The notes: a model not told the origin generated them from the letters alone. Positions 7,683 to 32,521 are shown, counted from the first letter of the stretch. The stretch is DNA of 32,521 nt from Candidatus Cloacimonadota bacterium (GCA_030154085.1 JASKKR010000025.1:1-32521); one strand, 5' to 3'. Translations and numbers: made by a program.

Positions 7683-7688
7683 AAATTA

Positions 7689-9786: not shown

Positions 9787-9811
9787 TACAAATCTAGATT
9801 AAGATTGGATT

Positions 9812-9852
9812 ATGGATGCGAAGGCTCGTGCTTTTCGCATCCATTTCTTTTT
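9812..9852 (+). terminator. Terminator between the PpiD-like gene and the phosphohexomutase gene
   Basis: A perfect 11-bp inverted repeat (ATGGATGCGAA at 9812-9822, TTCGCATCCAT at 9834-9844) is followed by TTCTTTTT. The strong hairpin ends the PpiD-like transcript. Its T-run directly adjoins the AAAGGAG of the next gene, so the next gene either has a promoter very close by or is read through. Confidence 0.88.
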
Positions 9853-9865
9853 AAAGGAGTGTATA

Positions 9866-11221: not shown

Positions 11222-11233
11222 AAACACTTTGTG

Positions 11234-11272
11234 GCAGGTTCTCAATTAAGGTTGAGACCTGCTATTTTTTTT
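11234..11272 (+). terminator. Terminator of the phosphohexomutase gene
   Basis: GCAGGT-T-CTCAA pairs with TTGAG-ACCTGC (one bulged T), followed by eight T. It lies 13 nt past the stop codon. Confidence 0.9.
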
Positions 11273-11344
11273 ACATCGGAAAATAGATTATAGGGATAGT
11301 TTATATTTGCCATCATCCTGGGAGATTTCTGTTATTTTTAGCTT

Positions 11345-11457
11345 GCTAAATGCTTGATATTGTAGCTCACTTGATGCCTCCCTCGTTTCACGCTCATTTG
11401 CGAAGTGAGCAAGAAACGAGAAAATAAGGAGTTACAGCTTTGTGAAGTGCGTTCTGT
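11345..11457 (+). repeat. Dispersed 113-bp structured repeat, copy A
   Basis: This 113-bp segment matches, in inverse orientation and without gaps, the segment 24372-24484; I counted 94 of 113 identical positions, with 48 bp at the 3' side (11402-11449) differing at one base. Inside lies a hairpin: CTCGTTTC (11382-11389) pairs with GAAACGAG (11413-11420), and GCTCA with TGAGC within it. Neither copy carries an evident ORF. It sits between the terminator of the phosphohexomutase gene and the end of the RNA methyltransferase gene, a space between convergent genes. It could be a small non-autonomous mobile element, an intergenic repeat family or an RNA element. Confidence 0.8.
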
Positions 11458-11518
11458 AAACACTGCTTGGCTACAACCAAGATGACTAAAAATAACCATG
11501 ATAAACAAAGATTTTCCC

Positions 11519-12256
11519 CTAATCTATGATTGTCGAAAGGTGATATGCTAAGATTGCAGAGCACATAGCTACATTCAAGGACTCCATCTCCCCCACCATC
11601 GGAATCCGCAAACGAATATCTGCTAAAGCCAATAGATGTTGATCCACACCATGAGCCTCACTACCAAGGATGTAGATTGTGGCTTTATCCTGCTTTCGAT
11701 ATTCTGGCAAGGAAATCTCTCCTGCCATATCTAATACCACTTTTGTGCTCTTTTCGTAAGAGAGTGCCTCTAGATCCATGATCATATGGGGCACTTTATA
11801 GACTGCACCCATGGAAGATCTAATAACCTTGGGATTTGCTATCTCGCAGCTTCCCTCCGAAATGAATATCTGCTCAATTGCAAAAGCAGCAGCAGTGCGA
11901 AAGATAGTCCCCATATTCCCCGGATCTGCAATTCTATCAAGATACAATGCTGTGTGATAGTCCAACTTCCGTGGCAAAGGAATATCATATAGTGCAGCCA
12001 GCTCAGATGGATGATCACTTTCGCAAATCCGAGCCATAGCCGCCGGCGAAAGTTCTATTGATAGGCTGGAAGGGCAAAACTCAGGAAGTTCATTTTGGAA
12101 ATAAATTTCGTGCGGATTAATGCCATAAGCAGCAAGCTGTTTGATAAGACGATATCCCTCAACCACTACCTGCCCTCTTTCTTGACGATACTTCTTTTGT
12201 TTAAGCTTTGCCAACTCTGAGATTTTAGCTTTGCTCAGTGGCTGGTTTTTGTTCAT
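11519..12256 (-). CDS. TrmH/SpoU-family RNA 2'-O-methyltransferase
   Basis: A 245-residue SPOUT methyltransferase. An N-terminal substrate-binding domain (about 8-95, with Lys-Tyr-Arg-Gln-Glu-Arg-Gly and Val-Val-Glu-Gly) precedes the knotted catalytic domain with the three SpoU motifs: Asp-Pro-Gly-Asn-Met-Gly-Thr-Ile-Phe-Arg-Thr-Ala (111-122), Leu-Gly-Ser-Glu-Ala-His-Gly (197-203), and Ile-Pro-Met followed by Glu-Ser-Leu-Asn-Val-Ala (218-230). Such enzymes methylate ribose 2'-OH groups in rRNA or tRNA; the length and N-domain resemble the RlmB / TsnR-like group, but the target base cannot be read from the sequence. AAGGAG lies 9 nt before the start. Its upstream region is the DnaA-box cluster. 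Confidence 0.9.
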   Translation of the reverse strand: MNKNQPLSKAKISELAKLKQKKYRQERGQVVVEGYRLIKQLAAYGINPHEIYFQNELPEFCPSSLSIELSPAAMARICESDHPSELAALYDIPLPRKLDYHTALYLDRIADPGNMGTIFRTAAAFAIEQIFISEGSCEIANPKVIRSSMGAVYKVPHMIMDLEALSYEKSTKVVLDMAGEISLPEYRKQDKATIYILGSEAHGVDQHLLALADIRLRIPMVGEMESLNVAMCSAILAYHLSTIID

Positions 12257-12278
12257 CTTATAGCTCCTTAAATTTCAG

Positions 12279-12398
12279 TTATCTACGGACTTATCCACCA
12301 AAATCAGTGGATAAGTTATCAGAGCTAACAAATTGTATGACAGCATATAAGGCATATGTTGACAGCATTCCACAATAGTTATCCACAACTTATCCACA
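12279..12398. promoter_or_regulatory. Cluster of DnaA-box-like sites
   Basis: Within 120 bp there are two exact consensus DnaA boxes TTATCCACA in direct orientation 11 bp apart (12379-12387, 12390-12398), two 8-of-9 boxes in inverted orientation (TTATCCACC at 12291-12299; TTATCCACT on the minus strand at 12306-12314) and a weak TTATCTACG at 12279. The inverted pair forms a palindrome CTTATCCAC ... GTGGATAAG (12290-12315). Between the two groups is a direct repeat TGACAGCAT at 12338-12346 and 12360-12368, 22 bp apart. It separates the RNA methyltransferase gene from the end of the C11 protease gene. The sites are seen directly; whether they form an origin, a titration site or a promoter control region is not known. 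Confidence 0.65.
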
Positions 12399-12416
12399 TA
12401 CCGTAAAATAGCTCCG

Positions 12417-14093
12417 CTAGTACATGACAGTCAGTTTCTTGCAGATGGATTTCCCGCGAGATTTTATTTCTAGAATATAGACACCTTTACTTAATTTGGC
12501 AAAACCAGATAGTTCACTAAGTTTAAGCATTCCTCTATTATCCGCGCTCCCTATAACTTGTTTTGCTGCAATCTTCTGACCTCGAATATTATAGAGAGAG
12601 ACCTTCACAACTTGGTTCTCTGAATCTTGCAAAAACCATTGCGAATATGCTAAGCGACTATCGATGATAGGATTGGGGTAGATTTGCAATGTGTTTTGGG
12701 GCTGAACATAAAAGTAGTTTCTCCTCAGAGGCTCAGAGACATTGCCAGAACGGTCTATAGCAAATATCTCATACATACCATCACTATCGATAGGGAAATC
12801 CAGATGAAATTCGCTTGCGTACGCAGGTGGGAAGATCTCGCGATTGACATGATCACCGGAGATCCGATAATAAAGCGAATCTACATCAAGCGGAGTAGAA
12901 ACGGTTAGCCAAAGTTTGCCTAAGCTTTGATATTCGGAGATGATCTGGGGAGCAGCAGGTGGATTTGTATCCTCACCCAGAGCATGATTTACCACGCTCA
13001 ACCAACCGCTCTGGGCAAAACCAAGCTTCATGTAGATCTGCCATGCCCAGTCTAGATTGATCCTTATATCAGGATACCACAGGGCGATGCTGACGAGATC
13101 CGTCTCAATCCAAGGCAAAGTATATGAAGATGCCAGAATCATCTCATCCAGCATAGCTCTCAGTTGAGTTGTCGTCATTACAGCACTATTTTCCAAACGA
13201 GTTAGCAACTGATTGATATCCACATCTGCATAACCAGAATTCATCTCAAAGAGGTTTTTGCGAATAGGAGCAAGCTGATCTGCCTTTTGCCAAAGCTCAT
13301 CCGAAAACTGACTCCATGCCTGGTAGAAATCTGTTAGAGATTCGGTTTTCACGGCTGAGCAAGTAGTAATCAGATATCCCAGAGAAGGGTTGTTGTCCGT
13401 GCCCGGAAGATATGAATCAGTATACATGCTAGGGATTTGCCCAGCAAGCTGTTCTGCCCCTCCGGAAATTATGGGAATCATCTCTTCATAGGGAAATCCA
13501 TGAACGGGCACCTGATCTGCAGATCCGATGATAATGCTAGCTATGTTACGCATTTCGTAAAGGATCTCTATGCTTTGCATGCTGCAAGCATCAAAGAGCA
13601 AAATATCCAAATGCGGAGCATCGCTAAGAGCATCCAGAAGCTCTCCATTCGCAACACCTATCATATTCTCGGTATCTTCATCCGGAGCAATGTATTTGGA
13701 ATTCTTGTACCAGCTGTCAGCATGCGACCAGATGATCAACATCTTCTTTTGTGCAGGATAGCGATTAAAACCCCAACGAATGAAGTCTTTGAGAGTATCT
13801 GGATCGCCACTGTCGATGTTACCCAGATCTTGCACAATAGGTGAGTTTATCCCAGAAGCAGGACGCTCTTCGATCTTATAACGTCTGCCCCCTGTTATAG
13901 GTAAATCAACTTGAACGATCAAATTCAAGCCCTCAGCTTGAACAGCTCTCTCCATCTCGACGATGTTTTGCTCTGCATAGCTTGCCAGATCATTGTCTGC
14001 TGCCATATATACGAGGACTGTCCACTCTCCAGCATGGATTATTCCAAAGAGTGTACAAAGCAGGAAGATGGTGAGTAGGAGGCGTTTTTTCAT
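12417..14093 (-). CDS. Secreted clostripain-like (C11) cysteine protease with T9SS-type C-terminal domain
   Basis: A 558-residue protein with a signal peptide (about 1-21, ending Ile-His-Ala-Gly) and a peptidase C11 domain (about 22-380). The expected catalytic pair is visible as His124 (Ile-Trp-Ser-His-Ala-Asp-Ser-Trp) and Cys170 (Leu-Phe-Asp-Ala-Cys-Ser-Met). After a fibronectin-like segment (about 390-475) the C-terminus has Ile-Tyr-Pro-Asn-Pro (near 479), a beta-rich module with Tyr-Asn-Ile-Arg-Gly-Gln-Lys and Gly-Val-Tyr-Ile-Leu-Glu-Ile-Lys, as in type A sorting domains of the type IX secretion system. It is therefore probably secreted or attached at the cell surface, cutting after basic residues like clostripain. 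A hairpin separates it from butyrate kinase upstream; no strong ribosome-binding site stands out. Confidence 0.88.
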   Translation of the reverse strand: MKKRLLLTIFLLCTLFGIIHAGEWTVLVYMAADNDLASYAEQNIVEMERAVQAEGLNLIVQVDLPITGGRRYKIEERPASGINSPIVQDLGNIDSGDPDTLKDFIRWGFNRYPAQKKMLIIWSHADSWYKNSKYIAPDEDTENMIGVANGELLDALSDAPHLDILLFDACSMQSIEILYEMRNIASIIIGSADQVPVHGFPYEEMIPIISGGAEQLAGQIPSMYTDSYLPGTDNNPSLGYLITTCSAVKTESLTDFYQAWSQFSDELWQKADQLAPIRKNLFEMNSGYADVDINQLLTRLENSAVMTTTQLRAMLDEMILASSYTLPWIETDLVSIALWYPDIRINLDWAWQIYMKLGFAQSGWLSVVNHALGEDTNPPAAPQIISEYQSLGKLWLTVSTPLDVDSLYYRISGDHVNREIFPPAYASEFHLDFPIDSDGMYEIFAIDRSGNVSEPLRRNYFYVQPQNTLQIYPNPIIDSRLAYSQWFLQDSENQVVKVSLYNIRGQKIAAKQVIGSADNRGMLKLSELSGFAKLSKGVYILEIKSRGKSICKKLTVMY

Positions 14094-18015: not shown

Positions 18016-19503
18016 ATGATGAATAATGACTTCCTGAAGCCCGCGCTGATTCTCGTGCTGGCAGCCATTCTTACAGGACTTGTTGCTTGGATTATTCCTG
18101 CTTATCATAATGATTTTTTCCCGATTCGCAAGATGCGGTGGTTTTCAGCGCTTTTAGAGCCTGCCAAAAAAGATAGCGTCTATACCCTGCCCAAGCCTCA
18201 CCCATATCAGCAGCCTGCGCTTAGACCATTTCTGGAAAAACTAAGCGCTATGCCTACTGTTGCAGGGAAAAGAGGGCTCATTAGCTCGGTTCATGATAGT
18301 CTGAGCTCTGTTGCCTCACCAAAGACTTTGCGTATAGCATATTATAGCGATTCTATAATCGAAGGTGACCTCATCACGGCGCCCCTTCGCCATGCTTTGC
18401 AAGAGACCTACGGCGGACATGGAGTGGGCATGATGCCGATCACCTCGATCGTCTCCGGATTTCGTCAGACTATCCGCCATAGCTTTTCCAAGAATTGGGA
18501 GAGCATCTCTTTCATGGACATAGATTCCAATCACATCTCTTTAGGTATCACCGGCTATACCTTTATTCCTCGCCCTTACTATCTGGAAGAAAAAGCCATC
18601 GATCCCCATGCTGCCGATAGCCTTTTTTTGGCTGATAGCCTTTTTTTTGAGACAGATGAAGCATGTTCTGCAGGCGAGAGTGACAGTTTGACCCGCTATT
18701 ATGTTGATGAAGATCCTTGGGTTGAGTATCGTGCTGTAAATATTGCTGGTGGAGCTGATAGTTTCCGGAAGATACGTCTTTTTTACAGCCATGCTTCTGA
18801 CAGCTCATACGTGCGAATCATTCATGATGCTCAAGAGCCTATAGTGATGAACCTCACATCTTCTGATAGCTTGCAGGTCTTGGACATCAGTCCCAGCTCA
18901 CCTACAAAACGGCTTCGCTTGGAATTTTGCAAAGACGACCCCATCCATGTTTATGGTGTCAGTTTTGACGATAGTGAAGGAGTCTATGTGGATAATTTCC
19001 CAATTCGCGGATACTCCGGTCTGTATTTTCAGAGAATTCACAGCCAATTGTTGAGGGATTTTGTGCAGGCTTTGGACTATGACCTCATCGTTCTGCAATA
19101 CGGCGGGAACATCACGCATCCGGATAATACTGACTACCGGGGCTACACCTCTGCCCTCATCCGCACGATTAAACACATTCAAGCGGCAGCCGGAGATGTC
19201 CCCATCTTGATCGTCAGCATGCATGACAGAGCTGTCAAGATGGGTTCACGATTCCAATCTTCACCCGATATCCCTCTCTTAATTGCTGCGCAAAGGGAAG
19301 CTGCAGAAAAGACAAATGTTGCATTCTGGAATGTTTACACGGCAATGGGCGGGGAAAATTCTATGCTTGACTTTGTAAATCACAATCCCCCGTGGGCTGG
19401 GAAAGATTACACCCATTTCACTCGTCGGGGTGCAGAACGTATTGCGGAGCTTTTTTTGGAATTTATCCAAGCTGAGAGTCAAGCTCCCCTCAAGGAAGAG
19501 TGA
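18016..19503 (+). CDS. Membrane-anchored SGNH/GDSL-family hydrolase, partner of the MBOAT protein
   Basis: A 495-residue protein with an N-terminal membrane segment (about 8-30) and a periplasmic SGNH-hydrolase-like domain. Block I is Tyr-Tyr-Ser-Asp-Ser-Ile-Ile-Glu-Gly-Asp (109-118, nucleophile Ser113), block III Tyr-Gly-Gly-Asn (362-365), block V Asp-Tyr-Thr-His (464-467). A beta-rich insert (about 165-330) separates block I from the rest. Its stop overlaps the MBOAT gene region, a pairing known from alginate and peptidoglycan O-acetylation, where the MBOAT protein carries an acyl group across the membrane and the SGNH protein transfers or removes it. Two ATG codons (18016, 18019) could start it; no clear ribosome-binding site is visible. 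Confidence 0.85.
   Translation: MMNNDFLKPALILVLAAILTGLVAWIIPAYHNDFFPIRKMRWFSALLEPAKKDSVYTLPKPHPYQQPALRPFLEKLSAMPTVAGKRGLISSVHDSLSSVASPKTLRIAYYSDSIIEGDLITAPLRHALQETYGGHGVGMMPITSIVSGFRQTIRHSFSKNWESISFMDIDSNHISLGITGYTFIPRPYYLEEKAIDPHAADSLFLADSLFFETDEACSAGESDSLTRYYVDEDPWVEYRAVNIAGGADSFRKIRLFYSHASDSSYVRIIHDAQEPIVMNLTSSDSLQVLDISPSSPTKRLRLEFCKDDPIHVYGVSFDDSEGVYVDNFPIRGYSGLYFQRIHSQLLRDFVQALDYDLIVLQYGGNITHPDNTDYRGYTSALIRTIKHIQAAAGDVPILIVSMHDRAVKMGSRFQSSPDIPLLIAAQREAAEKTNVAFWNVYTAMGGENSMLDFVNHNPPWAGKDYTHFTRRGAERIAELFLEFIQAESQAPLKEE
18613..18648 (+). repeat. 18-bp tandem repeat with T7 and T8 runs inside the SGNH gene
   Basis: Two imperfect 18-bp units (starting at 18613 and 18631) encode Ala-Asp-Ser-Leu-Phe-Leu and Ala-Asp-Ser-Leu-Phe-Phe. 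The first contains seven T in a row (18623-18629), the second eight (18641-18648). Both runs are in frame here. Confidence 0.85.
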
Positions 19504-19505
19504 AT

Positions 19506-20969
19506 ATGGAACACATCATCCACAGCATCCTCTCTGCGCTCGCCTACGACCCCAACAATCCGCTGCTTTTCAATAGCGTCTTCTTCCTTTTCTTCTTTAT
19601 CGTAGTTACTTTATTCTACCCTCTGGTCGTGCATAAAAGTCGCATCAGAGTCTGGTATCTGCTGCTCGTATCGCTTTATTTCTATTACAAGACGAGCGGT
19701 AGCTTTGTGCTGCTTTTGCTTATAACTGCCGCAATAAATTTTGCTTTGGGCTCGGCTATCTTCCGTGCCAAATCGGTTTCCCAAAAAAGATTCTGGCTAA
19801 TCTTGAGCATCGTTTGGAATCTGGGCAGTTTGGGCTATTTCAAATATACCAATTTCATCATTGATACCATCAACCATCTTTTTGGGGGCTCCTTGCCCAT
19901 GATGGATATCTTTTTGCCTGTAGGCATCAGCTTTTTTACTTTCCAGACTTGGAGCTACACGCTGGATATCTATTTTAAAAAGATTGAGCCCATAACCAGC
20001 TTCAGAGATTTTGCTTTCTTTGTCTCCTTTTTCCCACAACTCGTTGCAGGTCCAATCGTTCGAGCATCCTATTTCATCCCTCAAATCCATAAAAAGCTCC
20101 ATTTGGATGAAGATACAATTGCTCGAGCAATGATCCTGATCTTTGCCGGTTTGCTTAAAAAGGGAGTCATCGCAGATTACCTCTCAATCAATTTTGTAGA
20201 TCGAGTTTTTGAAAGTCCTGCCCTGTTTTCCGGAGTGGAAAACCTCATCGGAGTTTATGCATACGCCATTCAGATTTACTGTGATTTTAGTGGCTATTCG
20301 GATATTGCGATTGGTCTGGCAGCCCTTTTGGGCTTTAACCTCCCGATCAATTTCAACAGCCCCTACAAAGCTCATAACATCACGGAATTTTGGCGACGTT
20401 GGCACATCTCTCTGTCCTCCTGGCTACGTGATTATCTCTATATCCCTTTGGGTGGCAACCGCAAGGGCAAGCCCAGGCAATATCTGAATCTTGCTGCAAC
20501 GATGATTTTAGGCGGTCTTTGGCATGGCGCAAGCTGGAACTTTGTCTTTTGGGGAGCCCTACACGGAGTTGCACTGATAATCGATAAAGCGTGGCTTACT
20601 CTAAAAGTTGCCCAATACAGGATAGTCAAGATTTTGGGTGTAATTGTCACCTTCCATTTCGTTTGCTTTGCCTGGATCTTCTTCAGAGCGCCAACTTTTC
20701 ATGACGCTTGGCTGATCATCCAACGCATCACAACCGCCTTCAATGCCAATCTCTTGCCCCTTTGGCTACATGAATACCCAATCGTAGCGATTGTCATCCT
20801 CATTGGGTTTTTGTCACATTGGCAACCGGATAGCTGGCAAAGATTCTATGAAAGACTATTCCGGCAAATGCCTCTCCCGATAAAGTCCTTGACCATTGCC
20901 CTGATCATTTGGATTCTGTACCAAGTGCGCAGCGCGGATCTGCAGCCCTTTATATACTTTCAGTTTTAG
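19506..20969 (+). CDS. MBOAT-family membrane O-acyltransferase
   Basis: A 487-residue polytopic membrane protein of the MBOAT family (AlgI/DltB/PatA type) with about ten hydrophobic segments. Family signatures are Tyr-Cys-Asp-Phe-Ser-Gly-Tyr-Ser-Asp (258-266), Trp-Arg-Arg-Trp-His-Ile-Ser-Leu (296-303, His300), and Gly-Gly-Leu-Trp-His-Gly-Ala-Ser-Trp (336-344) with the expected catalytic His340. It probably moves acetyl or other acyl groups across the membrane to an envelope polysaccharide or peptidoglycan, with the SGNH protein. The ATG at 19506 is preferred because AAGGAAG lies at ideal distance; a GTG at 19500 overlapping the upstream stop (GTGA) would be two codons earlier. Followed 8 nt later by manA. 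Confidence 0.93.
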   Translation: MEHIIHSILSALAYDPNNPLLFNSVFFLFFFIVVTLFYPLVVHKSRIRVWYLLLVSLYFYYKTSGSFVLLLLITAAINFALGSAIFRAKSVSQKRFWLILSIVWNLGSLGYFKYTNFIIDTINHLFGGSLPMMDIFLPVGISFFTFQTWSYTLDIYFKKIEPITSFRDFAFFVSFFPQLVAGPIVRASYFIPQIHKKLHLDEDTIARAMILIFAGLLKKGVIADYLSINFVDRVFESPALFSGVENLIGVYAYAIQIYCDFSGYSDIAIGLAALLGFNLPINFNSPYKAHNITEFWRRWHISLSSWLRDYLYIPLGGNRKGKPRQYLNLAATMILGGLWHGASWNFVFWGALHGVALIIDKAWLTLKVAQYRIVKILGVIVTFHFVCFAWIFFRAPTFHDAWLIIQRITTAFNANLLPLWLHEYPIVAIVILIGFLSHWQPDSWQRFYERLFRQMPLPIKSLTIALIIWILYQVRSADLQPFIYFQF

Positions 20970-20977
20970 GAGTCAGG

Positions 20978-22138
20978 ATGAGATACATCACACCTTCGTT
21001 TCAAGACTATAACTGGGGATCAAAAGACTTTATTCAAGATCTACTGAGCCTCCCCAAAACGAGGATAATCGCTGAAGCATGGTATGGGGCACATCCCAAA
21101 GCGCCCGCTACTATTGATGGTGTTTCTCTGGCAGAGCTGGTGCACCGTGATCCTGAGTTTTGGTTGGGTCCCCGCTGCAAAGATTTCCCCTATCTGATGA
21201 AAATCCTCGCTGCCGAACAAGCTCTTTCTATCCAAGTTCACCCCAATAAAAAACAGGCAGAGCAGGGCTTTGCCAGAGAAAACTCACAACAGATACCTCT
21301 GGATAGCCCTCAAAGAAACTATCGTGATCCCAATCACAAACCAGAATTGCTCCTCGCACTCTCCAAATTCTCTGCTCTTTGCGGATTCCGAGATTTTGAG
21401 GATATGCGTAATATCATCCTACACTACGATCTTGATAGGTTTTTTGCCAAGTTCAGTCCATTCGCAAAACAGCCCAATCCTGACACCTTTCTGGACTTTT
21501 ATCATGAAACCATATCCCGTTCCAGCCTCCCCGGACTGAGTGAACACCTCGCCAAGCTCAGCCCCCGCCCTCCCTATGAACAAGAGCTCCGCTGGGCTCA
21601 AAAACTTTTAGAGCAGTATCCGGCTGACCGCAGCATAATCTCACCTTTTCTACTCAATTTGATAGAGCTGACTCCATATCAAGCCATCTATCTGGAAACG
21701 GGAATTGTGCATGCCTATTTAGGTGGCGCGGGAATCGAAATCATGGCAGCAAGCGATAATGTACTGAGAGCTGGACTCACTCAAAAGCACATGGATACTC
21801 ATGAGCTGCTTAAAATCCTGAAACCCAATCCCTACTTCCCAAAGCTGTTATCCTTTACTTCTGTTCCAGATACATGGCAATCTTTCCCTCTTGAAGTTCA
21901 AGATTTCTCTCTTTGGAGACTTGAGCTGCACCATGAAACTGCCATTCCCAAGATTGATGGGGCCAAGATCATTCTGTGTCTGAATGGTGATGCCCTTCTC
22001 AAACGCCAGAGTCAGTCCTTACCTATAAAACGCGGGGCAAGCATCATCATCCCACATTCTGAAAAGGGCGTCATCGCGATCGGCAAGGCAGAGCTGATCA
22101 TGGCAGCTCCGGGATGTACTGCCGCTTTCCTGAATTGA
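20978..22138 (+). CDS. manA: Mannose-6-phosphate isomerase, class I
   Basis: A 386-residue type I phosphomannose isomerase that interconverts fructose-6-phosphate and mannose-6-phosphate. Zinc ligands are visible: Gln86 and His88 (Ser-Ile-Gln-Val-His-Pro-Asn), Glu123 (Asn-His-Lys-Pro-Glu) and His245 (Gly-Ile-Val-His-Ala-Tyr-Leu). The catalytic-site Arg264 lies in Asn-Val-Leu-Arg-Ala-Gly-Leu-Thr. The start at 20978 has AGGAG six nucleotides upstream and gives the usual N-terminus; an in-frame ATG at 20909 lies inside the MBOAT gene and is rejected. Being the third gene after the SGNH/MBOAT pair, it may supply mannose precursors for the polysaccharide that the pair modifies. Confidence 0.94.
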   Translation: MRYITPSFQDYNWGSKDFIQDLLSLPKTRIIAEAWYGAHPKAPATIDGVSLAELVHRDPEFWLGPRCKDFPYLMKILAAEQALSIQVHPNKKQAEQGFARENSQQIPLDSPQRNYRDPNHKPELLLALSKFSALCGFRDFEDMRNIILHYDLDRFFAKFSPFAKQPNPDTFLDFYHETISRSSLPGLSEHLAKLSPRPPYEQELRWAQKLLEQYPADRSIISPFLLNLIELTPYQAIYLETGIVHAYLGGAGIEIMAASDNVLRAGLTQKHMDTHELLKILKPNPYFPKLLSFTSVPDTWQSFPLEVQDFSLWRLELHHETAIPKIDGAKIILCLNGDALLKRQSQSLPIKRGASIIIPHSEKGVIAIGKAELIMAAPGCTAAFLN

Positions 22139-24133: not shown

Positions 24134-24157
24134 TCATAACTAAACTGCCTCTTATGA

Positions 24158-24190
24158 CGGGATGACATAGTCGTCCCGCCTTTTATTTTA
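24158..24190 (+). terminator. Terminator of pruA
   Basis: CGGGATGAC (24158-24166) pairs with GTCGTCCCG (24170-24178) over nine positions including one G-U, followed by CCTTTTATTTTAT. It lies 25 nt past the stop codon. Confidence 0.88.
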
Positions 24191-24259
24191 TACAGTTCAT
24201 TTTAGTACTGCAAAAGACCTTTGCTCATAGGCTCTCTTCTCTGTCTTTGGAATATACGG

Positions 24260-24397
24260 TCAGAGGGCGACACAGTGTATGCAGACAAAGGCTATCTCTC
24301 CGGAAAGGATCAAGATATCCTTCTATCTTCAGATGCCGGCATCTCTACATCATTCTCCTTTTTGGATGGCAACAAAATACACTTCACAAAGCTGTAA
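24260..24397 (+). pseudogene. Remnant of an IS5-type transposase
   Basis: One frame in this otherwise empty region reads Ser-Glu-Gly-Asp-Thr-Val-Tyr-Ala-Asp-Lys-Gly-Tyr-Leu-Ser-Gly-Lys-Asp. The Val-Tyr-Ala-Asp-Lys-Gly-Tyr block resembles the conserved segment around the second catalytic Asp of IS5/IS1182-type DDE transposases. The rest of the frame is unlike a transposase, has no start and stops at 24395-24397, just inside the dispersed repeat. Only about 45 codons remain. No terminal inverted repeats or target duplications were found, so this is a decayed piece. The motif is short and chance is not excluded. Confidence 0.4.
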
Positions 24398-24484
24398 CTC
24401 CTTATTTTCCCGTTTCTTGCTCACTTCTCAAAGGGGAGAGAAACGGGGGAGGCGGCAAGTGCCCTACTTTTGCAAGCAGTTAGC
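24372..24484 (-). repeat. Dispersed 113-bp structured repeat, copy B
   Basis: The inverse-orientation partner of 11345-11457 (94 of 113 positions identical, no gaps). The hairpin arms here are CCCGTTTC and GAAACGGG instead of CTCGTTTC and GAAACGAG, so one base pair has changed on both sides (T-A to C-G), which keeps the stem. The inner GCTCA/TGAGC stem of copy A is not kept. It overlaps the end of the transposase remnant frame and lies upstream of the defence genes. Confidence 0.8.
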
Positions 24485-24692
24485 CAGGCTGGAATGCGCA
24501 AGGATCCGATAGAGCAGATTATGGGGATAAGATAATTGAGGGTCTGGCTGCTTTGAGTTCCTTCGGCATCATGCTCTGTACCCAGGGTTGATCAGGATTG
24601 ATCTTTAAATGCAAATAGTCAGTCAGCATATGCCCAGGCTTTACGATTCATTATTAAGTTCTATAAAAAGTAAACAAAAATCTGCTTTCGGC
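24485..24692. other. Gene-free stretch before the defence locus
   Basis: Between the dispersed repeat and the promoter of the PLD-helicase gene I see no gene, tRNA or terminator. The whole space from pruA (24133) to the helicase (24798) is 664 bp and holds only the pruA terminator, the transposase remnant, repeat copy B and a promoter. Short open frames here (for example 24247-24483 and 24279-24512) have no ribosome-binding sites and low-complexity, Ser/Arg/His-rich products. Confidence 0.6.
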
Positions 24693-24720
24693 TTGACAAC
24701 AAACCGTAAAATATTATTAG
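24693..24720 (+). promoter_or_regulatory. Probable promoter of the PLD-helicase / methylase operon
   Basis: TTGACA (24693-24698) is followed after 16 nt by TATTAG (24715-24720). The start codon of the helicase gene lies 77 nt further on, so the leader is about 70 nt. Surrounding sequence is AT-rich. The palindrome found before the HTH gene is not present here. Confidence 0.45.
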
Positions 24721-24797
24721 TACTTTTTTATTTGAAAGTAGCCAAAATAAGGAAGAATATGGTCTGCTATTGAAGACTATGCCCAAAGGAGCAGTTA

Positions 24798-27700
24798 ATG
24801 GATAGTGCATTCATTACAAATCAACAAGAGTTTCTTTCAAAAGTAATCAAGGATATATTGCCTGTTTCGGAAAAGCTCTATTTTTTGGTGGGTTATTTCT
24901 ATTTTTCTGGTTTTGAAGAAATCTATACGCAACTTGAAGACAAAGAGCTCAAGATCTTAGTAGGGATGAACATCGAAAGGGATATTTCCAATCACATCAA
25001 AGAGTTTTACATATTGCGCGAAGCAGAGCAATCCCGGCTGGAGATCAAAAAGCAGTACTATAGCTCCTTAGTAGATGTGTTCAACAATACGGATTTCTTC
25101 GATTCTGCTGCCAGGATCAAAGCCTTTGAGCTCTTCCTTAAAAAGATCCAGGATGGCAGCTTGCAGATCAAGAAAACGGCTGTCCCGAACCATGCCAAAA
25201 TGTACCTCTTTGAGCACAGCCCAATGTATACTCAGGGTGGGAAATTGCCGGGCACCATGATCACGGGATCCAGCAATCTCTCGCTTAGCGGCTTGAAATC
25301 ACAACATGAAATAAATGTGATACTCTATGATAAATTCAAGGCTGGTAAGGCGATATTTGATAGTTTGTGGGACACGGCGGTAGATATCATTTCTTTGGAC
25401 AATCTGGAAGATTTCACCGAGCTGGTGATCAAAAAGATCTGGTACCAAAAGCTTTATTCGCCGTATCTCTTTTATGTGCGGGTACTGGATGAATTCTTCT
25501 CGATCAAAGACCACCGCAGGGTGTCTTTGCCCTCACATATTACTGATGGCGCTTTTTTTGACCTTAAATATCAAACTGATGCGATCAAGAAAGCTCTGAA
25601 GGTAATCGAAGAACATAGTGGAGTAATGATCTGTGACGTGGTAGGTTTGGGCAAAAGCATCATTGCCTCCGCCGTGGCCTATAACCTCCACAAAAAGGTG
25701 ATTATCATTGCTCCGCCGCATCTTAAAGATCAATGGGATAAAGACTATCGCGTCCGTTTTGAGCTTAATGCCGTGGTATTTGGCTCTGGCTCCATTCACA
25801 AAGCTTTGGCATACCAAGCAAATTTCCCCGATGAGGAATTTGTTATCATAGTAGATGAAGCGCATAAATATCGCAATGAATATACCGATGATTACATCCT
25901 TTTGCATAGGCTCTGTCAGGGAAATAAAGTAATGCTGCTCACCGCTACTCCTTTTAACAACCGTCCGCAAGATGTCTTTGCCATGATCAAGCTCTTTCAG
26001 ATTCCGTCCAAATCCACTATCCGCAGTGTGGACAACCTAAGCTACCACTTTGCGGAAGCGGTAAAAGAATATAAGGAAATCAACAGCAGACGAAATAAAA
26101 AGACCATCAGCAAGAATGAATTGGAACGCAGGGTAAATGAACTTGCCCGCAAGATTCGCTTCATTTTGGATCCGGTGGTAATTCGCAGGTCACGTCTGGA
26201 CTTGGAAAAAATCGCATCATACCGAGCCGATCTGCAGAAACAAGGCATCCGCTATGTATTTGCCGAGCCGCCCATTCTCAAGGAATATTCCTTGGGAGAT
26301 TTGGCCGGGCGGTATATGAAGACGCTGAAGCTCATATCCCAAAATAGCAAGGACATTAGCGCTGATTCGGGCGAAATCAATGCGGATACCGGATACATCG
26401 GGGCTCGTTATAAACCGGCAAATTACATCATTGATCTGGAAAAATTCAAGAACAATATTACCAATGAAAATGCCGATGTGGAATCCATTGGGATTGCACA
26501 AACAAACCTGGCCAACTTCATGCAAAAGCTCTTGGTAGGTCGCTTTGAGAGCTCACTCAATGCGTTTAAAAAGACCCTGGAATCCATGATCAATTCCATG
26601 CAAATCATCAAAGGATACTACACCAAACTGGGGAAAGTGCCCATTTATAAAAAAGGGAAACTGCCCTCTGCGGACGAGCTCTTGGAAGATCTCGATGATG
26701 ACACCATGGCGCAGATCAATTCCTATGCTTTTGAAGAAGAGCTGAAAAAGCATTATGAAAAGGGTTTGGTCTTTATTCCCAAAGATGATCTTAAGGCATC
26801 CTTCATCATCCATTTGGAGCACGATCTGGAGCTCTTGGGTAAGATTCATCAAGAGTGGTTTGCCAAGGGCATCGAAAAGGATCCCAAGCTGGAGAGCTTC
26901 AAACACGAGATCAAGCGGCAGCTTAGTGAAGATCCCAGCCGTAAGATAGTAATGTTTAGTGAATATACAGATACCGCTTCCTATGTCTATGACCGCATTT
27001 CCCAGGACCCCCAGATCCGCGCGCTATATTACTCCAGCCAGGAATCTGCCAAAATACGCCGGATAATCAAAGCCAATTTTGATGCTTCTGCCTCCAACCA
27101 AAAAGATGATTATGACATCATCATCAGCACTGACGCACTTTCGGAAGGCATCAACCTAAACCGCGCAGGAACGGTCTTTAACTATGACATTCCCTACAAC
27201 CCCACCCGCGTAATCCAAAGAGTGGGCAGGATCAATCGCATTGGCAGGATGCTCTTTGATAAACTGTATATCTATAACTATTTCCCTACCGATATTGGCG
27301 AAGGTCACATCCGCAAAAAAGAAATCTCTACCCTCAAAAAAGCCATGATCGATGTGCTTTTGGGTGAAGATACCAAAGTGCTTACCAACGAAGAGAAATT
27401 GGTTTCATATTATCATGAGCAATACCAGAAAGCTTTAGCGAATCAGGAAGCCGAATCCTGGGATGCAAAATTCATCAATGAATATGATCAGATCCGCAGC
27501 GGTAAAGCCGATCTGCTCAAAAAAGCCAGAGCCATGGAACACCGCAGCAGATTGCGCCGCAATGTGCAAAAAGAACAATCCGGAGTGCTCGTCTTTGGCA
27601 AAAAAGGAGATGATTTCAGCTTCCGGCTTGGTGAAGATGCACAGAAGTCCTACGCCCTAACTCCGGAAGAAGCTTTAAATCTTTTTAAGGCAAGTCAATT

Positions 27701-28076
27701 GGAAAAGCCCATGGCAGTATCTGCTGCATTTGATGCCATATATCAAAATGTAAAAGCCAATATGTATGTTTCCCAAAGTATCACTGCTACCAGCGGGAAA
27801 AGAGCGGAATACTTAAACAAGATCAAAGCCATGATCAAAGAAGAAACTCCTTATAAAGACTATCTGCAGGATCTTTTCACCGTCGCCAAAGAGCTGAATT
27901 CCCTGCCCGATGGGGCCTATCTTGCCATCAAAGATGTCCATAAAGATAGCTTGAACGACGATATTCAAAAGCTGATGGAGCTTATCCCGCATAGATATCT
28001 AAATACCATTATCAACAATGCCCGCAAGATTGAAGAAGGTGCCGAAAGCTTGATTCTTGCCGAAGAATTAATATAG
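24798..28076 (+). CDS. PLD-nuclease-like / SNF2-type helicase fusion protein
   Basis: A 1092-residue protein. Residues 1-200 are a phospholipase D-like nuclease domain with one HKD-type motif: His132-Ala-Lys134 and Gly-Ser-Ser-Asn-Leu-Ser (157-162) then Glu171-Ile-Asn. From about 250 follows a superfamily 2 helicase of the SNF2/HepA type: motif I Gly-Leu-Gly-Lys-Ser (283-287), motif II Asp-Glu-Ala-His (353-356), motif III Thr-Ala-Thr-Pro (382-385), a long helical insert (about 420-700), then the second RecA domain with Ser-Glu-Gly-Ile-Asn-Leu and motif VI Gln-Arg-Val-Gly-Arg-Ile-Asn-Arg-Ile-Gly-Arg (807-817). About 240 residues of unknown type end the protein. The fusion resembles the 'PLD N-terminal, Snf2-like' domain family. 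A single HKD motif suggests dimerisation to form an active site. AAAGGAG precedes the start. The methylase gene follows after 8 nt, so both are likely one system. Confidence 0.9.
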   Translation: MDSAFITNQQEFLSKVIKDILPVSEKLYFLVGYFYFSGFEEIYTQLEDKELKILVGMNIERDISNHIKEFYILREAEQSRLEIKKQYYSSLVDVFNNTDFFDSAARIKAFELFLKKIQDGSLQIKKTAVPNHAKMYLFEHSPMYTQGGKLPGTMITGSSNLSLSGLKSQHEINVILYDKFKAGKAIFDSLWDTAVDIISLDNLEDFTELVIKKIWYQKLYSPYLFYVRVLDEFFSIKDHRRVSLPSHITDGAFFDLKYQTDAIKKALKVIEEHSGVMICDVVGLGKSIIASAVAYNLHKKVIIIAPPHLKDQWDKDYRVRFELNAVVFGSGSIHKALAYQANFPDEEFVIIVDEAHKYRNEYTDDYILLHRLCQGNKVMLLTATPFNNRPQDVFAMIKLFQIPSKSTIRSVDNLSYHFAEAVKEYKEINSRRNKKTISKNELERRVNELARKIRFILDPVVIRRSRLDLEKIASYRADLQKQGIRYVFAEPPILKEYSLGDLAGRYMKTLKLISQNSKDISADSGEINADTGYIGARYKPANYIIDLEKFKNNITNENADVESIGIAQTNLANFMQKLLVGRFESSLNAFKKTLESMINSMQIIKGYYTKLGKVPIYKKGKLPSADELLEDLDDDTMAQINSYAFEEELKKHYEKGLVFIPKDDLKASFIIHLEHDLELLGKIHQEWFAKGIEKDPKLESFKHEIKRQLSEDPSRKIVMFSEYTDTASYVYDRISQDPQIRALYYSSQESAKIRRIIKANFDASASNQKDDYDIIISTDALSEGINLNRAGTVFNYDIPYNPTRVIQRVGRINRIGRMLFDKLYIYNYFPTDIGEGHIRKKEISTLKKAMIDVLLGEDTKVLTNEEKLVSYYHEQYQKALANQEAESWDAKFINEYDQIRSGKADLLKKARAMEHRSRLRRNVQKEQSGVLVFGKKGDDFSFRLGEDAQKSYALTPEEALNLFKASQLEKPMAVSAAFDAIYQNVKANMYVSQSITATSGKRAEYLNKIKAMIKEETPYKDYLQDLFTVAKELNSLPDGAYLAIKDVHKDSLNDDIQKLMELIPHRYLNTIINNARKIEEGAESLILAEELI

Positions 28077-28084
28077 GAGAGCTC

Positions 28085-31000
28085 ATGAATAGCCTGCTTG
28101 ATTCTGCCTACAACCGCGCAGCCTGGATAGATTTTCTGCAAAACCGACTTTTACCCGATGATTTCAAGCTTAAAAGACAAACTGTAAACATAACATTCAA
28201 ATCCAAATACATCAAACCGCAAGCTTATTGGATTGGTGATTGCTCATCCCTGGATGACCTGGCTATTATCGAGATCTCCCACTGCTCCGAAAATGACCCC
28301 CGCATAAGTGTATCCCGCGATGCCTTCCGCTTGATGGCTGAACTGAATCTCGAAAGCGCTCTGTTTTTCTTTGTCTCAGAAAATTCCGATAACTACCGCT
28401 TTTCCCTGATCACGCTCAAGCTGGAACTTGAAGGCACCGGTGTGAAATATAAGTTCTCCAATCCCAAACGCTTTTCGTTTTACTTGGGACCAGATGCCAA
28501 AACCAAAACCCCCGAGCTCTTTCTCTTCCAAAAAGGCAGGATATCCGACCTTGAGGATTTGCAAGGCAGATTCTCTATCGAAGTAGTAAACAAGGAATTT
28601 TACCAGAGAATACAAAAGAGCTTCTATAGCTTGGTGGGTGGTAAATTGAAGCAGGGTAACAAAGAAGAGGAATTCCAATCTCAGCTCAAGCTGCCCGGAA
28701 ATCCCGATACCAAGACCAGGCAGGAATTTGGCGTGCGCTTGATCGGCCGCATTGTCTTCTGCTGGTTTCTAAAGAAAAAGCTCTCGGATAAGGGCAATCC
28801 TCTGATTCCGGATGATGTGCTATCCTCGGCAGCAGTGAAGAATTCTTTTTACCACCATGTAATGGAGCCGCTCTTCTTTGAAGTGCTCAATACGCCTCTG
28901 GAGCAACGGCATCAGGACTTTCGCTCGCCACTTTACGACGCTATCCCCTTCCTCAATGGTGGACTCTTTGACCCCAATATGCATCAGGATTTTTACATCC
29001 CAGCCAGCCCCACGAAGCCGGCACAGCCCGCCTGGCATCTGAAAATTCCGGATCAATGGTTCAAAGAGCTCTTTGGCATCCTGGAGACATATAACTTTAC
29101 CATCGATGAAAATACCTCCATCGATATCGACCTCTCTGTAGATCCCGAAATGCTGGGACGCATCTTTGAAAACCTGCTGGCAGAGATCAATCCGGAAACC
29201 GGACAAAACGCAAAAAATGCCACCGGTAGCTTTTATACACCCCGCGCAATCGTGGAATATATGGTGGATGAAGCCCTGATCCAATATCTGAAAAGCAAAA
29301 CGGATATTGATGAATCTGCCATTCGTGATCTACTGGATTTCAATATTGAAGAATGCGAGCTGCCGAAACACCAAAAGATTGCAGTCATCGATGCCTTGGA
29401 CGAGATCAAAGTCCTTGATCCCGCCTGTGGCTCCGGCGCCTTCCCCATCGGAATGTTACAAAAAATGCTGCTCATCCTCCAAAAGGTGGATCCGGAATCA
29501 ATCGAATGGGTTGTGCGCCAACTGAATAAAATTCCCAATAAGCTGGTGCGTGATGCGCTGGAAGAAAAGCTAATGGATGAAAACTGGCAATACCAGCACA
29601 AAATGGGCATCATCAAAAACGCCATCTATGGTGTGGATATCCAAACCATCGCTACTGAAATTACCAAACTAAGGCTCTTCCTTACCTTGATCGTGGATGA
29701 CAAGGTGCTGGACGATAAACCTAACAAAAACATCCACCCCCTGCCCAATCTCTCCTTTAAATTCGTGACCGCAAATAGCCTTATCCCCCTTGGCGAAAAG
29801 AAGGAAACACAACTGCTTTACAAAAAATACATTCGGAAATACGACGGTATTCGAGATCGATATTTTCATGCCCACTTTGTAAAAGAGAAGGAATCTATCA
29901 AGTCAGATTTTGCAGCTGTACAAAAAGAGCTCGTAGCTAAGTATTTTGAACCCACCTTTAGCCAGGCAGATATATTAGGTGAACCTGAAGAAAAGCCGCT
30001 GACAATAAAAAAAGAAAAAGAATACATTTTTAAACTTGTAGAATGGAATCCATTTGAAGATAAGGTATCGTCTTGGTTTGAGCCCAAGTGGATGTTTGGC
30101 ATCAAAGAGGGCTTTGATATCGTGATCGGGAATCCGCCTTGGATACAATCTTCCGTTTTGCCAATCGAGTATAAAGAGCAGTATAAGAAGCTCTATGTAC
30201 TGGCAAAAGGTCAGTATGATATATTTTGCTTGTTTATAGAAAAGTCACTTTCACTGCTTTCAAAACAAGGGTCCATAGTGTTTATAACCCCAAATAGATT
30301 TATCACTAACATCGAATACACTTCCTATAGATACTTCCTGCTTAGTTCAACTACCATTAAGCAAGTGATTGATTTGGGTGATGGAGTTTTTTCAGATGTT
30401 AACATGCCGTCTGCGATACTAATTTGCACCAACGAAGATAACAGAAGTAATTGTTTAAGCTTTAGTTTGGGGATTAATGATAAGTTGAAGTTCAAGAGAC
30501 AATCAGATATTATATCTATTGAGAACCATGTATTCCCCCTGTTTGGCGACGAGATGTATACACCAGTGCTTGCAAAAATAAACTCAATGTCTGTGCAATT
30601 GAAGGATCTACTTCACAATGCCAGAGGAGTTGAGATTGGCAAGAAATCAAGTGCAATATCAGAACGAATGGAGCCGGGTAGCGTTCCACTGCTAAGGGGA
30701 GAGGACATTGATAGATATAGGATCAAGAAACAGGTTTATCTTCGAACAAATATTGAGGGAATCAATTACAAATCCCCCCAGATATATGAAGGCGAAAAAA
30801 TACTGATTCGGAAAACAGGAACCGGTGTTGCCGCAACTATTGACTATGAGTTTCGGTATGTTTTGCAAGTAGTGTATGTGTTCAAGCTTCGGAATGGGAT
30901 AGACTGCTCACACGAGTTTGTGTTAGCTATTTTAAACAGTACTCTGCTTGGTTTCTGGTATCACAACACGTACGGGGAAAAGGGTCGTAAGACGTTCCCT

Positions 31001-31312
31001 CATCTTACCCAAGGGAAAGTGAAAACATTCCCTATCCCGAAGAACTACTCATCTGCTAAGGCATTGTTTACGTCAATGGTCAAAGAGATACTCTCATCTA
31101 CAAATGAAATGGATAGAATGTCACTCGAATCCCAAATCGACCTCATGGTTTATAAGCTTTATGAGCTTAGCTATGCTGAAGCTAAGTTGATTGATCCGGA
31201 TTTAGATAAGGTATTGGGCACTTTTGGTTTGAGTAAAGCAGAATTTGAGCGGATGACGATGGAGCAAATAGCTGAGATTGATGTCAGCGGAAGGCCTAAT
31301 GTGATAATCTGA
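28085..31312 (+). CDS. Eco57I-type adenine-specific DNA methyltransferase with target-recognition region
   Basis: A 1075-residue protein with the motif order of Eco57I / type IIG methylases. Motif I is Val-Leu-Asp-Pro-Ala-Cys-Gly-Ser-Gly-Ala-Phe (443-453); motif IV is Asn-Pro-Pro-Trp (683-686), typical of N6-adenine methylation. About 230 residues separate them, as is usual in this group. The part after about 840, with Leu-Leu-Arg-Gly-Glu-Asp-Ile and Ile-Leu-Ile-Arg-Lys-Thr-Gly, resembles a TaqI-like target-recognition domain. The N-terminal 200 residues resemble the front part of type IIG enzymes, but near 63 the sequence is Glu-Ile-Ser-His, lacking the Glu-x-Lys of a nuclease, so cleavage would depend on the PLD-helicase. 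GC content falls from about 44% (29041-29340) to about 35% (30181-30480). AGGAG precedes the ATG, 8 nt after the helicase stop. Confidence 0.9.
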   Translation: MNSLLDSAYNRAAWIDFLQNRLLPDDFKLKRQTVNITFKSKYIKPQAYWIGDCSSLDDLAIIEISHCSENDPRISVSRDAFRLMAELNLESALFFFVSENSDNYRFSLITLKLELEGTGVKYKFSNPKRFSFYLGPDAKTKTPELFLFQKGRISDLEDLQGRFSIEVVNKEFYQRIQKSFYSLVGGKLKQGNKEEEFQSQLKLPGNPDTKTRQEFGVRLIGRIVFCWFLKKKLSDKGNPLIPDDVLSSAAVKNSFYHHVMEPLFFEVLNTPLEQRHQDFRSPLYDAIPFLNGGLFDPNMHQDFYIPASPTKPAQPAWHLKIPDQWFKELFGILETYNFTIDENTSIDIDLSVDPEMLGRIFENLLAEINPETGQNAKNATGSFYTPRAIVEYMVDEALIQYLKSKTDIDESAIRDLLDFNIEECELPKHQKIAVIDALDEIKVLDPACGSGAFPIGMLQKMLLILQKVDPESIEWVVRQLNKIPNKLVRDALEEKLMDENWQYQHKMGIIKNAIYGVDIQTIATEITKLRLFLTLIVDDKVLDDKPNKNIHPLPNLSFKFVTANSLIPLGEKKETQLLYKKYIRKYDGIRDRYFHAHFVKEKESIKSDFAAVQKELVAKYFEPTFSQADILGEPEEKPLTIKKEKEYIFKLVEWNPFEDKVSSWFEPKWMFGIKEGFDIVIGNPPWIQSSVLPIEYKEQYKKLYVLAKGQYDIFCLFIEKSLSLLSKQGSIVFITPNRFITNIEYTSYRYFLLSSTTIKQVIDLGDGVFSDVNMPSAILICTNEDNRSNCLSFSLGINDKLKFKRQSDIISIENHVFPLFGDEMYTPVLAKINSMSVQLKDLLHNARGVEIGKKSSAISERMEPGSVPLLRGEDIDRYRIKKQVYLRTNIEGINYKSPQIYEGEKILIRKTGTGVAATIDYEFRYVLQVVYVFKLRNGIDCSHEFVLAILNSTLLGFWYHNTYGEKGRKTFPHLTQGKVKTFPIPKNYSSAKALFTSMVKEILSSTNEMDRMSLESQIDLMVYKLYELSYAEAKLIDPDLDKVLGTFGLSKAEFERMTMEQIAEIDVSGRPNVII

Positions 31313-31510
31313 TCTTGCGTATGAGATTGTATCTAAATACGATAGCAAGTATTCTTTCGCACAGCGAAAATAAAGCTTGACCCTATAGCCAGTTGGCTAT
31401 AGCTTGTGGTCGTGAGATAAAGAAAAAGTATTCTCCAGAAGAAATTAGACTCTCTCAAACTGAATTTCCGTTGGTCGGGGAAATTCACACAATCCAGATT
31501 TTGTGGGTTT
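31313..31510 (+). other. Gap between methylase and HTH genes with decayed frame
   Basis: No clear gene. One frame starts with ATG at 31321, meets TGA at 31378-31380 and continues to TGA at 31516; after the first stop it reads like protein (Leu-Ala-Ile-Ala-Cys-Gly-Arg-Glu-Ile-Lys-Lys-Lys-Tyr-Ser-Pro-Glu-Glu). It may be a short decayed gene. Hairpin TTTCGC-ACA-GCGAAA lies at 31355-31369, without a T tract. Confidence 0.3.
31377..31403 (+). promoter_or_regulatory. Palindrome inside a promoter before the tandem-HTH gene
   Basis: TTGACC (31377-31382) and TATAGC (31398-31403) are 15 nt apart. A perfect 8-bp inverted repeat CTATAGCC-AGTT-GGCTATAG (31383-31402) fills the space between them and covers most of the -10, so a bound dimer would block polymerase. 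A second inverted repeat, TGGGTT/AACCCA (31504-31509, 31518-31523), spans the first ATG of the HTH gene. Confidence 0.45.
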
Positions 31511-32188
31511 ATGTATGAACCCATAACTCGTAAAGAAAAGCTAAAAGGCGAGGATTACAAAGAAAGAAAGATGGCAAAGTCGGAAAAGCTCTGGCTACAT
31601 AAACATAACGAATCAGCGCAAGAGCCGGATAAAGATTTTCCCTCGATCCCCAGATGGGGAAGGGATCTGATCGATATCATTTCTGATCTCACGGCAAAAC
31701 GAACCAGACTGGAAATGACTCAGGATGAACTGGCAAAAAAGATGGGTGTCTCACAGCCGGTGGTAGCAAGATTTGAGAATATGGGCAGAATCCCTTCAAT
31801 AGAGTTTATTTACAAGGTAGCCGACGGACTGGGAGTAGAGCTGAAACCGCTTAGAATGATATCGCCCAAACTGGCTACAGATTCTGAAGATGATGAGCTG
31901 GATATGCCCAAACCTGATATTCCCCGGTGGCAGCAAAATATTTACGAGATTATAGCAGATCTGACGGTGTGCAGACTAAGACAAAGAATCAGTCAGGCTG
32001 AACTGGCCAGGCGCATGGGCACCAGTCAATCCGTGATTACGAGATTCGAAAGAATGGGCCGAATGCCCACTCTGGAATTTATTTACCGCGTAGCCGACGC
32101 CCTGGGAGCAGAGCTGGAGCCCATACAGATCCTGCCTGAGCTAACATACATTGGTTTTTTGAACATGCGAAAGGTACAGAAAACATGA
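31511..32188 (+). CDS. Regulator with two tandem Cro/C1-type HTH domains
   Basis: A 225-residue protein built from two similar HTH_XRE units: about 46-115 and 137-206, each starting Ile-Pro-Arg-Trp and reading Leu-Ala-(Lys/Arg)-(Lys/Arg)-Met-Gly-x-Ser-Gln-x-Val-x-x-Arg-Phe. The units are 91 residues apart, joined by an acidic linker (Asp-Ser-Glu-Asp-Asp-Glu), so one chain could bind a palindromic operator as a built-in dimer. Function is likely as transcription regulator of the methylase/helicase operon or of itself. The start is uncertain: ATG at 31511 lies in an inverted repeat, and the ATG at 31571 (20 codons later) is an alternative; neither has a good ribosome-binding site. The stop overlaps the next small ORF by ATGA. 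Confidence 0.85.
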   Translation: MYEPITRKEKLKGEDYKERKMAKSEKLWLHKHNESAQEPDKDFPSIPRWGRDLIDIISDLTAKRTRLEMTQDELAKKMGVSQPVVARFENMGRIPSIEFIYKVADGLGVELKPLRMISPKLATDSEDDELDMPKPDIPRWQQNIYEIIADLTVCRLRQRISQAELARRMGTSQSVITRFERMGRMPTLEFIYRVADALGAELEPIQILPELTYIGFLNMRKVQKT

Positions 32189-32352
32189 GTTTGGAAGATT
32201 TTTTGAGAAATAACGCTCCGGCTTCCCTTATCCCTTACCTACGGGAAAGCCTTTCTGCTATGTGTCTGAAAGCAGGACTGCCGGCAGTGTATCTTCCTCC
32301 AATCAACATTATAGCTTTGCTTGAGCAAGGCGGTAAAGACACAAATAAATAA
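32185..32352 (+). CDS. Small unknown protein, 55 aa, coupled to the HTH regulator
   Basis: A 55-codon frame whose ATG overlaps the stop of the HTH gene (ATGA at 32185-32188), which argues strongly for translational coupling. The product begins Met-Ser-Leu-Glu-Asp-Phe-Leu-Arg-Asn-Asn-Ala-Pro-Ala and ends Glu-Gln-Gly-Gly-Lys-Asp-Thr-Asn-Lys; the middle has Pro-Ala-Val-Tyr-Leu-Pro-Pro-Ile-Asn-Ile-Ile-Ala-Leu-Leu. It is amphipathic, with no signal peptide, no Cys cluster and no known motif. It could be a small partner of the regulator. A weak hairpin TGGC-AAAA-GCCA follows soon after. Confidence 0.6.
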   Translation: MSLEDFLRNNAPASLIPYLRESLSAMCLKAGLPAVYLPPINIIALLEQGGKDTNK

Positions 32353-32392
32353 AAATAGCAGTGGCAAAAGCCATTGTGATGGGTTTGAAAGT

Positions 32393-32521
32393 ATGCTGGT
32401 AGAGAATGATATTTTGGTACGTGAAGTTATAACCAAAAAAGAATTGCGAAAATTCGTCAAGTTTCCTCTAAAATTATATCAGGGAAACAAGTATTTTGTT
32501 CCGCAATTAATTAGCGAAGAG
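32393..32521 (+). CDS. GNAT-like acetyltransferase family protein, N-terminal part
   Basis: The frame is open to the window edge, so only the first 43 residues are seen. They read Met-Leu-Val-Glu-Asn-Asp-Ile-Leu-Val-Arg-Glu-Val, then Thr-Lys-Lys-Glu-Leu-Arg-Lys-Phe-Val-Lys-Phe-Pro and Leu-Tyr-Gln-Gly-Asn-Lys-Tyr-Phe-Val-Pro-Gln-Leu. This opening (Thr-Lys-Lys-x-Leu-x-x-Phe-x-x-Phe-Pro then Tyr-x-x-Asn-x-x-(Phe/Trp)-Val-Pro) is typical, from memory, of YghO-like proteins annotated as N-acetyltransferases. The true function cannot be tested here because the catalytic part is outside. No strong ribosome-binding site is visible. Confidence 0.6.
   Translation, partial: MLVENDILVREVITKKELRKFVKFPLKLYQGNKYFVPQLISEE

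Follow-up and report, generated by a model that had tools for sequence, protein, structure and literature searches.

A PLD–SNF2 helicase and Eco57I-type methylase pair beside the remains of a toxin–antitoxin–chaperone module in Candidatus Cloacimonadota

The window analysed here, 32,521 nucleotides (nt) from a Candidatus Cloacimonadota bacterium (GCA_030154085.1, JASKKR010000025.1:1-32521), constitutes the complete contig 19 of a draft genome of 1.95 Mb. Towards its end it carries a phospholipase D (PLD)-nuclease/SNF2-type helicase gene followed by an Eco57I-type N6-adenine methylase gene, which together are an intact, widespread, little-studied but not undescribed two-gene restriction–modification system, its restriction and methylation activities being predicted. 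Behind the pair lies what is left of a toxin–antitoxin–chaperone (TAC) module. We consider it likely that this is the whole explanation of the locus: a restriction–modification pair adjoins a dead TAC module, two unrelated things side by side. The initial annotation of this DNA had proposed a single four-gene defence locus, perhaps of an undescribed subtype; its core, a compact PLD–SNF2 and Eco57I restriction pair, was right, and its novelty claim of a four-gene subtype was wrong.

The helicase–methylase pair

All the window features described here lie on the plus strand. The helicase gene (24798-28076; 1092 amino acids, aa) ends 8 nt before the methylase gene (28085-31312; 1075 aa), and both proteins are full length when set against their relatives. 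The open reading frames (ORFs) initially listed, these two together with 31511-32188 and 32185-32352, which overlap by ATGA, are all present. Pfam likewise finds the domains that had been named: PLDc_2, SNF2/ResIII and Helicase_C in the first product; Eco57I, N6_Mtase and TaqI_C, with the NPPW motif, in the second; and two HTH_3 helix-turn-helix (HTH) domains in the third. A PLD–SNF2 helicase gene thus directly adjoins an Eco57I-type methylase gene with a TaqI-like recognition domain (TaqI_C).

In a scan of genome contigs, at least 557 sequences related to the helicase were retrieved, and they range from Patescibacteria to Bacteroidota and Pelagibacteraceae. A phage collection gave only one helicase match, distant and partial. 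Neighbours were counted at 80 kept loci, a few of which are also order-level loci. At 66 of these a methylase gene of the same orientation follows within 2 kb, mostly with a 4-nt overlap or a gap of a few nt; at four it lies within 2 kb upstream; at seven the contig ends before any methylase; and at the remaining three the methylase is further away or absent. The pair is also present in order-level contigs with enough room. Co-occurrence of the two large genes elsewhere, which the initial annotation had made a test of its reading, is accordingly seen across phyla. The two proteins have moreover diverged together: over the 66 loci, helicase and methylase identities are correlated (r = 0.74), a value that none of 999 permutations reached.

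The nearest relative with a full methylase, at locus L027, shares 75% identity with the window in the helicase and 77% in the N-terminal part of the methylase, compared with 23% in the recognition region. Such replacement between close relatives is as expected if recognition regions are exchanged and the specificity swapped. The window and L027 copies both stand behind relatives of the same genes (window 18016-22138), and since the pairs share these preceding genes the site is probably old in the genus. An alignment of four regions upstream of the helicase revealed no clearly conserved promoter.

The helicase protein comprises a PLD domain (residues ∼104–191) and helicase lobes at residues ∼257–471 and ∼705–816. 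In an alignment of 91 homologous helicases, His132, Lys134, Gly157, Ser158 and Asn160 of the PLD domain, which span the motifs His132-x-Lys134 and Gly157-Ser-Ser-Asn160, are invariant or nearly so, and Lys286, Asp353, Glu354, Arg808 and Arg811 of the helicase are invariant (91 of 91). The HKD nuclease motif proposed earlier stands for its His and Lys; its third letter, here Glu139, is not conserved. The methylase has sequence relatives of known structure in the PDB (7lni, BseCI, BrxX and TaqI), and its NPP motif is kept in all 73 homologues that cover that part.

The PD-(D/E)xK active site of type IIG single-chain enzymes is not present in the methylase N-terminus. The window has Glu63-Ile-Ser65 there and no Asp/Glu-x-Lys, in keeping with the initial remark that no Glu-x-Lys nuclease site is evident, and the lysine of such a possible site occurs in only 17 of 81 methylases. 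By our reading, helices and strands in a model of the N-terminal region succeed one another as in a PD-(D/E)xK fold, and Glu63 falls in the third strand; the region is probably a nuclease-like domain that has lost its lysine and plays a structural role. Two observations tell against this view: a structure search with the N-terminal model gave no significant PDB match, and the lysine is retained at this site in L042 and other homologues. Because the PLD residues are conserved and the Glu-x-Lys lysine of the methylase mostly is not, the cutting role most likely belongs to the PLD domain.

In the mechanism that we propose, the C-terminal TaqI-like domain of the methylase would read an asymmetric site and the enzyme would place N6-methyladenine on host DNA. 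Translocation would be the work of the SNF2 motor, which the methylase bound at an unmodified site probably guides, and the PLD domain, which has a single motif and must pair with a second copy, would cut. The same division of labour, with the methylase marking self and the helicase translocating and cutting through its PLD domain, had been suggested at the outset, and as an inference it gains support from the conservation and from the replacement of the recognition region.

Several loci show further features around the pair. Elsewhere in the genome from which the window comes there is another, distant pair (L037, G000:C10:8001-27000, positions 6791-13628), with ∼31–35% identity in the helicase and no adjoining TAC module. 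At L042 (G050, 1319-2335) a DUF1016/YhcG-type nuclease gene lies between helicase and methylase, and on a Parabacteroides distasonis plasmid (L160, 16651-17568) a TIR-domain gene stands directly downstream of the pair.

The remnant behind the methylase gene

TAC modules consist of a toxin, an antitoxin and a SecB-like chaperone (PMC5105189, PMC9519451, PMC11618068). The 55-codon ORF (32185-32352) matches the C-terminus of SecB (Pfam SecB, 28.5 bits with the cut-off at 26; PADLOC PD-T4-9_C) and corresponds to the C-terminal third of a SecB-like chaperone, scoring 82 bits against a SecB profile built from TAC relatives. It lies inside a longer SecB-like fragment (32138-32352) situated behind the antitoxin, whose frame matches positions 86-144 only of the family profile; SecB is full length at L016, L017, L040 and L041.

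By homology, the HTH gene is the antitoxin of such a module. Its relatives are antitoxins of 293 aa (L016, G009) and 323 aa (L017/L036, G008), each flanked by a small toxin-like gene on one side and a complete SecB-like gene (142–165 aa) on the other. Neither Pfam nor PADLOC gives a match for the L016 toxin; the leading structural matches of its model belong to the RelE/YoeB/HigB superfamily, with weak E-values (best 9.7e-4) and TM-scores of ∼0.4–0.5, which makes the model RelE/YoeB/HigB-like. As once built, the module would have comprised a HigB/RelE-like ribonuclease toxin, a SecB-like chaperone and, between them, a tandem-HTH antitoxin that bore a chaperone-addiction tail and served as autorepressor. 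At L039 (∼8050–8330), a stand-alone tandem-HTH gene of G002 adjoins repeats that resemble a CRISPR array (GTATTCCCCACAGGCGTGGGGGTGAACCG).

In the window the antitoxin (31571-32188, ∼205 aa) retains only its tandem HTH_3 part. Its match to the antitoxin profile of intact modules (269 bits) covers positions 1-190 and then stops, the C-terminal chaperone-addiction tail that is present in L016 and L017 having been deleted. The last residues of the HTH ORF, ELTYIG, are those of SecB at the corresponding place (L016 has EITYIG). A T6 run (32155-32160) is one base short and shifts the frame, and beyond it the SecB reading goes on in the −1 frame (FFEHAKGTENMSLEDFL). A deletion thus joined the antitoxin to the chaperone, and the joined frame was broken in two by a frameshift, which produced the apparent ATGA-coupled ORF. 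The overlap that had been pointed out in the small ORF is real; the coupling is not, being a by-product of the frameshift within the SecB frame. For the regulator the tandem HTH_3 assignment stands and the start is moved from 31511 to 31571, the start common to the L016 homologue, the codons from 31511 onward being read-through of a toxin remnant.

The 200 nt ahead of the HTH gene hold the promoter/operator of the module and a broken toxin gene. The surviving promoter/operator (31377-31405), delimited by DNA alignment to L016, has a −35 box TTGACC and a palindrome, TATAGCCA-GT-TGGCTATA (31384-31401), that overlaps the −10 box; over 68 nt that take in both −35 box and palindrome (TATAGCCAGTTGGCTATA), the alignment to L016 is close. 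The same kind of palindrome lies between −35 and −10 in five of the five intact or partial TAC loci examined (L036, L039, L040 and L041 included). The toxin remnant (31393-31548) matches profile positions 1-24 and 94-123, colinear and in one frame, with ∼70 residues missing between them; ATA replaces ATG at 31417, and stops occur at 31516 and 31531. Shuffled sequences reached the remnant's score against two intact toxins in 0 of 500 and 2 of 500 cases, whereas against the nearest toxin (L016) 123 of 500 did so, which is not significant. The identification accordingly draws on position and promoter alignment beyond the weak sequence match.

The deleted antitoxin tail makes the window module a remnant rather than a working TAC; the chaperone, too, lacks at least its first half, and the toxin, judged by its sequence, is dead. 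Some weight lies on the other side: taken by sequence alone the toxin remnant is weak and leans partly on position and promoter, and in a draft genome the T6 frameshift may be an assembly error. Assembly errors are unlikely to account for the large deletions. At most, the autorepressor would still act on its own operator. The small-gene result is also a warning, in that a tidy ATGA-coupled 'new gene' proved to be a chaperone fragment.

One system or two

A TAC module and a restriction pair may form one composite system. TAC modules are proven phage defences (PMC9519451, PMC11618068), and one could serve as a second line or guard of the pair, with SecB sensing phage proteins and the toxin stopping growth if restriction fails; the window would have lost this second line. 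Two intact arrangements speak for the idea. In L036 (G008) a TAC module lies ∼150 nt behind the methylase of a distant pair, and in L091, a Bacillota contig (6063-14012), another kind of TAC, made up of a Gp49/HigB-type toxin, an HTH antitoxin and SecB, is directly upstream of the pair. With the window this gives three TAC–pair neighbours, two of them intact, against ∼0.15 by chance on our own estimate from SecB density for the sets searched. Three cases are few, however, and defence-island clustering accounts for adjacency without any shared function. SecB genes of the TAC kind occur in 13 places in 107 genomes of the order, two of which adjoin a pair (the window and G008), and SecB is found in 14 of 80 pair-bearing genomes, adjacent in one (L091). 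Nor do the TAC and helicase relationships agree: the antitoxin of the window shares 64% identity with its stand-alone counterpart in G009 and 53% with that of G008. We therefore regard a composite defence as improbable for this locus, and grant a slightly slimmer chance to the broader proposal that pairs repeatedly recruit SecB-dependent toxin–antitoxin modules as a chaperone-sensing second line, giving composite restriction and abortive infection, of which the window has lost the latter part. The intact TAC-by-restriction cases (L036, L091) nonetheless offer a testable lead for layered defence. Positions 5351-14059 of L036, an intact one-strand run of helicase, methylase, toxin, tandem-HTH antitoxin and SecB-like chaperone, make the best natural test case.

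Alternatively, the pair may represent a reduced form of DISARM or of a BREX-related system and depend on a partner absent here (DrmA/B, a YprA helicase or a DUF499 ATPase) and encoded elsewhere in the genome. The best NCBIfam scores do point towards such systems, the helicase matching DrmD and the methylase PglX, and ARMADA and BREX-related type 1 systems resemble the pair in that their SNF2 helicase goes together with an N6 methylase of PglX-like or related type (PMC12458937, PMC12839542). Yet the scores fall far under the curated cut-offs (144 bits against 610 for DrmD, 90 against 500 for PglX), an N-terminal PLD domain does not appear in descriptions of BREX-related helicases, and the two genes keep each other's company in many phyla, all of which leaves this reading quite unlikely. 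Class I DISARM shares the activities of SNF2 helicase, adenine methylase and PLD nuclease; in the window, by contrast, PLD is fused to the helicase, DrmA and DrmB are lacking and there is no separate DrmC. ARMADA and BREX-related systems differ in that the window has no YprA helicase, DUF499 ATPase or GajB-like gene, and its nuclease is PLD. No gene for PglZ, BrxC, a DUF499 ATPase or a YprA helicase lies in the stretch from 24134 to 32521, where the contig ends; DrmB, PglZ, BrxC and HsdS genes are absent, as had been noted. With scores so low and partner genes absent, membership in DISARM, BREX, BREX-related or ARMADA systems was rejected, which agrees with the earlier opinion that neither the DISARM nor the BREX label fits.

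The proposal of one four-gene defence system, with the HTH protein as dedicated controller and the small ORF as coupled accessory, has in its favour the shared strand, the close spacing, the ATGA overlap and the fact that controller proteins are common in restriction–modification systems. It fares very poorly on four counts. The conserved operator of the HTH protein occurs at one place in the window, before the TAC remnant and not before the helicase operon (0.07 matches would be expected with ≤3 mismatches); homologues of the HTH protein belong to toxin–antitoxin–SecB modules away from any pair (L038, L040, L041); the small ORF, for which the proposal is refuted, is part of a SecB gene; and most helicase–methylase pairs have no such genes. 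We rejected the single system on the TAC homology of genes 3 and 4 and on the operator position.

Least credible of all is a working antitoxin–SecB-tail fusion, a chaperone-free autorepressor made by −1 frameshifting at T-TTT-TTG (32155-32161): the heptamer fits the X-XXY-YYZ slippery form and the −1 frame runs straight into SecB, but none of the 107 genomes of the order has a relative with such an arrangement, the N-terminal strands of SecB are missing and the toxin to be controlled is dead.

Comparison with known systems

The pair is found widely, with more than 550 relatives, and has hardly been studied. It would offer a clean example, with two proteins only, in which the cutting job of the methylase has passed to a metal-independent PLD nuclease borne by the helicase.

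For the TAC module, the relevant comparisons are HigBA-SecB of Mycobacterium tuberculosis, MqsRAC and CmdTAC (PD-T4-9). L016, L036, L040 and L041 have the same order of toxin, tailed HTH antitoxin and SecB-like chaperone; they differ from the known modules in the tandem HTH within one antitoxin and in a toxin without Pfam or PADLOC match, and the window copy is decayed.

For the pair, the Pin17FIII methylase of P. intermedia makes N6-methyladenine at GGYGAB when expressed in Escherichia coli, as determined by SMRT sequencing, and has an SNF2/RAD54 helicase upstream (PMC5608340). The likeness drawn here is one of description, and the portion of that source consulted describes a type IIG enzyme and does not mention a PLD domain. 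The Lactococcus plasmid pJM1F (L159) carries a like pair, with a helicase that is distant (251 bits with the window-family profile, against 1143 for a Parabacteroides copy). Next to that pair, at 8703-10170, are a spare TaqI-like specificity domain on the opposite strand and an Mpi-type DNA invertase, which suggest an invertible specificity switch; the window has neither. The same architecture is already in print for orf33-orf34 of the Lactococcus plasmid pLd8 (van Mastrigt 2018; PMC6098607), where PLD was proposed as the cutter and a comparison with class I DISARM was drawn. Going by the published description, pLd8 resembles the window in pairing a PLD and SNF2/DEAD helicase with a neighbouring IIG-type N6-adenine methylase that has pfam12950 and no evident nuclease.

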